A DNA stretch of 36,527 nt, taken from contig CALXXL010000021.1 of the NCBI GenBank assembly GCA_944392655.1, forward strand, positions 1 to 36,527, in the 5' to 3' direction. Source of the DNA: an uncultured Victivallaceae bacterium (GTDB taxonomy: Bacteria; Verrucomicrobiota; Lentisphaeria; Victivallales; Victivallaceae). The notes under the pieces are model-generated. The model worked only from the letters and a program-made list of their open reading frames with translations. It was not told where the DNA came from and did no database searches. Position numbers and translations under genes: made by a program. Every line of letters begins with the position of its first letter. Positions within the stretch are counted from its first letter, which is position 1. Below, one piece after another: positions 1 to 1,065 of the stretch.

Positions 1-78
1 TTTTAACTTACAATCCTATAATTATAATATAAAAAATTAAAAAAAACGATTTTTTTTATAAAAATCCGCTTTTTTTAT

Positions 79-120
79 TTGCAATTGGAAAAAAATGGAA
101 TATTTTGGAATAGAAAGGAA
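79..120 (+). promoter_or_regulatory. mraZ promoter with four 10-bp-periodic TGGAA-type repeats
   Basis: TGGAA occurs at 86-90, 96-100 and 106-110, with AGGAA at 116-120, so four 5-mers are separated by exactly 5 bp. A promoter-like pair, TTGCAA (79-84) and TATTTT (101-106) with 16-bp spacing, overlaps repeats 1 to 3. MraZ of E. coli is known to bind direct repeats of TGGGN with 5-bp spacers upstream of its own gene. The same geometry just before this mraZ suggests an autoregulatory site with a changed core. The repeats are read directly; binding and the exact promoter are inferred. Confidence 0.6.
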
Positions 121-146
121 AAGGTTGATAATCCAAAGGTTTGCCG

Positions 147-632
147 ATGTTGCCGTTTTGTGGACAGGATCGTTGCGTGATAGATGCCAACGGGCGGATA
201 AAGTTGAGTCCGCGTTTGATCGGGGATTTTGCCCGTCAATGTAATGGTGAAGTTGTGTTATACTGTCTGCCTGAAGGAGCCATCGCGATCTATCCGGAAG
301 CTGTGTTTGTGGAGATGCGGGAAGCCTCGGCACGATCGTTATCTGATGTTGGCACTAGCCTGATACGCCGCCGTGAATTGCGTCGCTTTGGTGCGATGAC
401 ATTGCCGGATAGAATAACTCAGCAGGGACGATTGACTATTCCTACGGGATTTCGTGATTTTACCGCATTGCAGCCTGGTACTGAAGCGTTTGTTGTGGGC
501 GTTGAGATCGGCGCGGAAATCTGGAATGCGGAACGCTGGAAGCGTGAAATGGATATTGTAAACGGTCATCTTGAACAGAAGGGGTTGGAAGAGATGGCTG
601 CGGATTTAAGAAATACAGGTAATTTACAGTAA
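147..632 (+). CDS. mraZ: MraZ transcriptional regulator (double SpoVT/AbrB fold)
   Basis: This is a DNA-binding regulator that in most bacteria heads the division and cell wall (dcw) cluster and represses it. Both half-domains are visible: DANGRIKLSP near residues 13-22 and QQGRLTIP near 92-99, followed by a GVEIGAEIW segment typical of the second copy. The 161-residue length is close to the usual 140-155. I chose ATG147 because AAAGG lies 7 bp upstream; a TTG at 141 would sit directly on that ribosome site. The usual partners rsmH, ftsL and ftsI are absent; the next gene, 13 bp on, is a small membrane or exported protein. Four periodic repeats in the promoter suggest self-regulation. Confidence 0.9.
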   Translation: MLPFCGQDRCVIDANGRIKLSPRLIGDFARQCNGEVVLYCLPEGAIAIYPEAVFVEMREASARSLSDVGTSLIRRRELRRFGAMTLPDRITQQGRLTIPTGFRDFTALQPGTEAFVVGVEIGAEIWNAERWKREMDIVNGHLEQKGLEEMAADLRNTGNLQ

Positions 633-645
633 GGGGAACTGGAAA

Positions 646-927
646 ATGATGGATGTAAAACATAGTTTGGGATTTAAGTTGGCAGTATTTGGAATTCTGG
701 CGGTGTCGATGGTACTTCTGCCGGGCGCTATCTCCGGGGCGTCTGCGGAGAGTGCAGAGATGACTGTGGCAGTAAATGAAGCGGTAAAATCCATCAATTG
801 TGTATCAGCGGAAGTTGCTGCGGAAAATCGTGCTGAATTTGTGGAGTTTGGGAAAGACAATCCTTTGTTTGCACTTCAAATGAATGCTCAGAAGTTTGAA
901 CCGCGTCATCATAATTTATGGAAATAA
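646..927 (+). CDS. small exported or membrane-anchored protein of unknown function, downstream of mraZ
   Basis: I do not recognise this 93-residue protein. A short polar start is followed by a hydrophobic stretch (about residues 10-30) and an SGASAES-like sequence that resembles a signal peptidase site, so it is either secreted to the periplasm or held by one membrane segment. The remainder, about 55 residues, is Ala/Glu/Asn rich with a single cysteine. It starts 13 bp after mraZ, with AAGGGG as ribosome site, and ends before a strong terminator, so it is the only partner in the mraZ transcript. Its size and topology recall FtsL, which normally lies near mraZ, but I see no convincing heptad coiled coil. 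A second ATG at 649 is equally possible as start. Confidence 0.6.
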   Translation: MMDVKHSLGFKLAVFGILAVSMVLLPGAISGASAESAEMTVAVNEAVKSINCVSAEVAAENRAEFVEFGKDNPLFALQMNAQKFEPRHHNLWK

Positions 928-978: not shown

Positions 979-1022
979 AGGATGCGAAATTGTTCTGCCT
1001 GCAATTTCGCATCCTGCTTTTT
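979..1022 (+). terminator. intrinsic terminator after the mraZ operon
   Basis: A perfect 14-bp stem (979-992 with 1002-1015) encloses a 9-nt loop and is followed by CTTTTT (1017-1022). It separates the mraZ unit from the efp promoter. Confidence 0.85.
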
Positions 1023-1036
1023 AATGGTAAAATTGC

Positions 1037-1065
1037 TTGAAAACAAGAGTTTTTGGTGTTATATT
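1037..1065 (+). promoter_or_regulatory. efp-epmA promoter (sigma70-like, extended -10)
   Basis: TTGAAA (1037-1042) is followed 17 bp later by TATATT (1060-1065). A TG at 1057-1058 forms an extended -10 element. The start codon of efp is about 40 bp downstream of the expected start point. Confidence 0.6.

Follow-up and report, generated by a model that had tools for sequence, protein, structure and literature searches.

What reads a promoter in which TGGAA repeats recur every 10 bp in front of a gene for an MraZ relative, and does their spelling mark a changed recognition code? The locus lies at the start of the window, by which we mean the whole stretch of DNA analysed here (36,527 nucleotides, contig CALXXL010000021.1 of assembly GCA_944392655.1, from an uncultured Victivallaceae bacterium). 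MraZ is among the most conserved bacterial regulators, and changes of its recognition code are poorly known. Boxes of the TGGG type are reportedly those of E. coli MraZ, a description attributed to Eraso et al. 2014.

A second MraZ paralog outside the dcw cluster

The product of the window gene was matched by Pfam PF02381 at 42.4 bits (cut-off 23), through its C-terminal repeat only, and its scores against the NCBIfam MraZ equivalogs were 28.8, 23.2 and 21.2 for cut-offs of 162, 168 and 98. The AlphaFold2 model (pLDDT 89) has the double AbrB-like fold of MraZ and was matched to solved MraZ structures with Z scores of 17.6-18.6 over 137-140 residues, the next other fold scoring 5.8. Among these structural matches are two promoter-bound entries, 9r4j and 9sz7, which are solved promoter complexes of M. 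genitalium MraZ (Z 17.6-17.8); a literature search found no paper accompanying these 2026 structures. Residues D13, G16-R17 and Q93-G94-R95 of the DxxxR and QGR loops are invariant in 31 MraZ2 orthologs.

We located the ordinary dcw mraZ of this genome on contig C3, where mraW/rsmH follows it; the window gene is therefore an MraZ relative but a second paralog, termed mraZ2, and not the dcw mraZ. It is followed by a small transmembrane gene and a terminator instead of mraW/rsmH. In a tree with dcw MraZ proteins of the class and of other classes, mraZ2 forms a separate clade with support of 100/100; this clade sits on a long stem, and the tree fixes neither its attachment point nor a duplication within Lentisphaeria as its origin. 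The original prediction, made from the letters of the window, had spoken of an mraZ gene, which is correct as to the MraZ family; the equivalog scores, the locus and the tree all speak against the dcw mraZ.

Of 61 near relatives, the window's own genome included, 50 had the second paralog; one close relative is the Victivallaceae MAG JAQUTL010000016. Across a sample of the phylum, 60 of 289 genomes carried it, all from one class (Lentisphaeria: Victivallaceae and relatives). In our literature search, no paper was found that describes, for this phylum, either MraZ boxes or a second MraZ.

Table 1. Features of the mraZ2 locus (window coordinates), with the pedestal and SEDS genes given by locus or genome position (G000, own genome).
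Feature	Position	Strand	Basis
-35 hexamer TTGCAA, weak match	79..84	+	orthologs: TTGNNN 7-8 bp before box 1, fixed register
MraZ2 box 1, TGGAA	86..90	+	sequence; conserved in 50 orthologs
MraZ2 box 2, TGGAA	96..100	+	sequence; conserved in 50 orthologs
-10 hexamer TATTTT	101..106	+	orthologs: TATAAT, TATTTT or TATATT at box 1 + 15
MraZ2 box 3, TGGAA	106..110	+	sequence; conserved in 50 orthologs
MraZ2 box 4, degenerate AGGAA	116..120	+	ortholog comparison
Probable ribosome-binding site AAAGG	135..139	+	7 nt before ATG 147; sequence, inference
mraZ2, second MraZ paralog, 161 aa (ATG at 147, stop ends at 632)	147..632	+	Pfam, AlphaFold2 fold, tree
Small single-TM or signal-anchored protein, 93 aa, operon gene 2	646..927	+	orthologous loci
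Intrinsic terminator closing the operon	979..1015	+	15-bp stem, T-run; -23.1 kcal/mol, z -5.6
efp promoter-like site TTGAAA-17-TATATT	1037..1065	+	promoter scan; marks end of mraZ2 unit
Pedestal protein genes	L121-L130, L134, L138, L140 (mraZ2 loci); L141-L150, L153-L160 (mostly detached)		
SEDS genes, own genome	G000:C5:51997-53025 (L141); two further on G000:C8		

A conserved box array in fixed register with the promoter

Direct reading of the window confirmed the predicted repeats, which stand upstream of the mraZ2 reading frame at a period of exactly 10 bp (Table 1). A run of three TGGAA or four WGGAA at this period arose in 0 of 20,000 dinucleotide-preserving shuffles of window positions 1-146. 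The pattern TGGW-N6-TGGW-N6-TGGW has a single match in the 2.34-Mb genome, at window position 86, and a stricter TGGA version likewise has one.

An alignment of regions upstream of the gene in related genomes had been proposed as a check on the original prediction, and it found a TGGAA-type array kept in front of mraZ2 in 50 of 50 relatives (own genome included), with the consensus TGGAATATAA; four NGG boxes were recorded in 48 of the 50, and these counts are not independent because the genomes are related. Within the boxes of the 50 orthologs, T occupies position 1 in 96% and A position 4 in 84%, so that the predicted core of TGGAA in place of TGGG is borne out across mraZ2 orthologs. The GG pair is kept at 99%, in contrast to the variable A/T positions, and its spacing peaks exactly at 10, 20, 30 and 40 bp. 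As to the number of repeats, the prediction of four holds for three TGGAA boxes, and the fourth is degenerate in the window's genus, reading AGG in the window and TGG in nearly all orthologs; one congener (G001) has three boxes only, with no GG at box 4. At the level of the class, a few exceptions were noted, such as G120, which is without a clear array, and G259, which spells TGGTC.

In the mraZ2 set, the -10 hexamer sits between boxes 2 and 3 and shares one base with the latter: the final T of the hexamer opens box 3, as it does in the window. The window hexamers are weak (each 4/6) and were not listed by the automatic promoter scan, yet they occupy the same positions as the well-matched hexamers of relatives. 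With the promoter placed in this register, 76% of orthologs had at least 9 of 12 matches, compared with 0-12% when the register was slid. Because the register of boxes and promoter is fixed among mraZ2 orthologs, the original remark that the operator overlaps the promoter was right, and the overlap is conserved, even though the window's own hexamers are weak.

Two box codes in the same genomes and their candidate readers

The dcw mraZ genes of the same genomes carry an AGG[GT]G-type array in 56 of 56 upstream regions, with A at position 1 in 92% of boxes, and three further dcw mraZ genes of Lentisphaeria have AGG boxes as well. Boxes of dcw mraZ from other classes of the phylum read TGGGG, which is the E. 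coli-like spelling. Where the two codes stand side by side, box positions 1 and 4-5 set them apart in essentially every genome. The dcw loci of these genomes (L033 and relatives) share with mraZ2 the period and the placing upstream of their own gene, but differ in the AGG[GT]G spelling, in a DxQxRxA loop, and in an array that mostly begins right after the -10. Since the dcw mraZ of the same genome uses this other code, the box code is, on comparison of the sequences, paralog-specific rather than simply lineage-specific; a distinct code had been correctly predicted, its assignment to a lineage had not.

The recognition loops were found to shift in step with the boxes. The first loop is DxKxRxT in the outgroup, DxQxRx[AST] in the dcw proteins of the class, and DxNGRxK in MraZ2. 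Its third residue is K in 39 of 41 outgroup proteins, Q in 56 of 56 dcw proteins and N in 45 of 50 MraZ2 proteins, and its seventh is T in the outgroup, A, S or T in the dcw set, and K or R in all 50 MraZ2 proteins. The second loop of MraZ2 reads xQGRxTxP, with the T present in 49 of 50. The simplest reading would be that both spellings derive from an ancestral TGGGG, through a change of the first base in the dcw line and of the fourth and fifth bases in the mraZ2 line, and the distinct spelling suggests that the two regulators were rewired to avoid mutual interference.

Several described MraZ systems offer points of comparison. As in E. coli, the mraZ2 array consists of 10-bp direct repeats with a GG core upstream of its own gene; it differs in its TGGAA core in place of TGGG, in a gene outside the dcw cluster, and in extending across both spacer and -10. 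Mollicutes MraZ sites are AAAGTG[TG]-N3 repeats (PMC8475190, PMC5282649), and MraZ2 has in common with these systems the fold (as predicted), the 10-bp repeats and a four-box promoter, whereas the Mollicutes sites have a GTG core and their protein is a dcw MraZ controlling dcw genes. The B. cenocepacia site comprises four repeats of 10-bp period (7 nt plus 3 nt; PMC7761207), a number and period shared by the mraZ2 array. In Burkholderia, though, the array lies past the -10, covers the transcription start and belongs to a dcw gene (PMC7761207); in position, the dcw arrays of Lentisphaeria are comparable to those of B. cenocepacia and E. coli (PMC7761207).

We consider it probable (about 0.83) that the array is the operator by which MraZ2 represses its own gene, and that its spelling insulates it from the dcw MraZ. 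An MraZ2 ring would set its subunits on three or four TGGAA boxes in a row, which, at one per helical turn, would all face the same side of the DNA. Such a ring would lie over the -10, the spacer that separates it from the -35, and the stretch immediately downstream, and would shut out RNA polymerase, so that mraZ2 and the gene for the small membrane protein, as one operon, would be repressed. Having diverged in their loops and in different box positions, MraZ2 and the dcw MraZ would each find only their own promoter. That MraZ2 binds the array as a ring of this stoichiometry, represses instead of activating, and does not cross-talk with the dcw MraZ is inferred partly by analogy: the ring on one face and the exclusion of polymerase are taken from MraZ proteins already described. 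In E. coli, MraZ is a repressor of its own operon, and in M. genitalium it represses dcw genes (PMC8475190).

One alternative has the dcw MraZ, alone or together with MraZ2, reading the array, which would put mraZ2 in the dcw regulon. The 10-bp geometry and GG core are common to both arrays, and M. gallisepticum MraZ in vitro binds about equally to its own motif and to the look-alike HsdC motif, without an in vivo effect (PMC5282649), so that cross-recognition of this kind has a precedent. We nevertheless regard this as unlikely given the differences at positions 1 and 4-5 noted above and the own genome, where the AGGK array occurs only at dcw mraZ and the TGGW array only at mraZ2. Furthermore, no promoter-type TGGA array was found in the 11 relatives without detected mraZ2 (some of these genomes are incomplete), although dcw mraZ is still present in most of them; the scattered pattern matches in these 11 genomes were without A/T-rich interiors, as judged by eye.

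Positive control, with MraZ2 activating its own operon from the array, is comparably improbable. Overexpression of M. gallisepticum MraZ was accompanied by higher FtsZ, at least as that result is cited second-hand in PMC8475190, which leaves the sign of MraZ2 regulation uncertain, but boxes that span the promoter from the -35/-10 spacer through the -10 to the start region are an arrangement typical of repression. It is very improbable that the array, instead of being a protein operator, is an element of curved promoter DNA or a series of phased A-tracts in which the GG is incidental: A/T-rich box interiors do recur at each helical turn, but it is the GG and not the A/T positions that is conserved, and the array occurs at one promoter in the genome and is absent where mraZ2 is absent. 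Chance or A-tract periodicity as the source of the array was ruled out by the conservation pattern together with the shuffles and the spacing.

The mraZ2 operon and a linked SEDS and pedestal module

A small protein of the same form follows mraZ2 in 45 of the 50 orthologous loci, by automatic picks of which a few are doubtful. This small protein has no Pfam match above cut-off. Across orthologs a conserved C-terminal motif, W..A..NP.L.LR, was noted, which is weak in the window copy. In one family (f3: L009, L017, L024, L070, L077), mraZ2 and the small transmembrane gene are separated by an extra ORF of about 75 aa that has paired CxxC motifs. An operon with efp/epmA was ruled out because a strong terminator and a separate promoter-like site intervene, which places efp (1107-1673) outside the mraZ2 unit; within the downstream stretch examined, efp was beside mraZ2 in 0 other relatives.

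Outside Victivallaceae, mraZ2 in many genomes heads an operon in the order mraZ2, small protein, pedestal protein, SEDS protein, which resembles the mraZ-ftsL-ftsI-ftsW order of the dcw cluster, with the small protein being like FtsL by position only. In the three pedestal proteins (about 235 aa) tested against Pfam, only PBP_dimer, the class-B PBP pedestal, was matched, and no transpeptidase domain. These pedestal-only, class-B PBP-like proteins range from 219 to 304 aa and adjoin the third SEDS protein where both were read, and the spacing checked is too small to hold a transpeptidase domain. Three SEDS genes are present in most relatives; the third type is distinct from FtsW and RodA, and its presence suggests that the class has a separate system for wall synthesis. 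We also compared the occurrence of the third SEDS gene and mraZ2: 47 genomes have both, 3 mraZ2 only, 5 the SEDS gene only and 6 neither (Fisher one-sided; p = 5e-4), a value that is indicative only since the genomes are related.

In the window's family, the pedestal-SEDS pair is present but lies elsewhere in the genome, and no box array was found at these detached pairs. As the array is also single, a wider MraZ2 regulon was rejected for the own genome. It is conceivable, at somewhat less than even odds, that MraZ2 originally governed this second wall module and that the two MraZ proteins became orthogonal through different changes of TGGGG. If so, the third SEDS protein and the pedestal-only class-B PBP would possibly form a glycan polymerase without its own cross-linker.

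With the outgroup, the two paralogs supply a natural experiment for decoding MraZ specificity, in which each of three codes pairs with its own loop sequence, and they may likewise serve to show how duplicated autoregulators come to be insulated. The linked SEDS and pedestal module hints that MraZ2 may serve a separate, undescribed wall-synthesis system.
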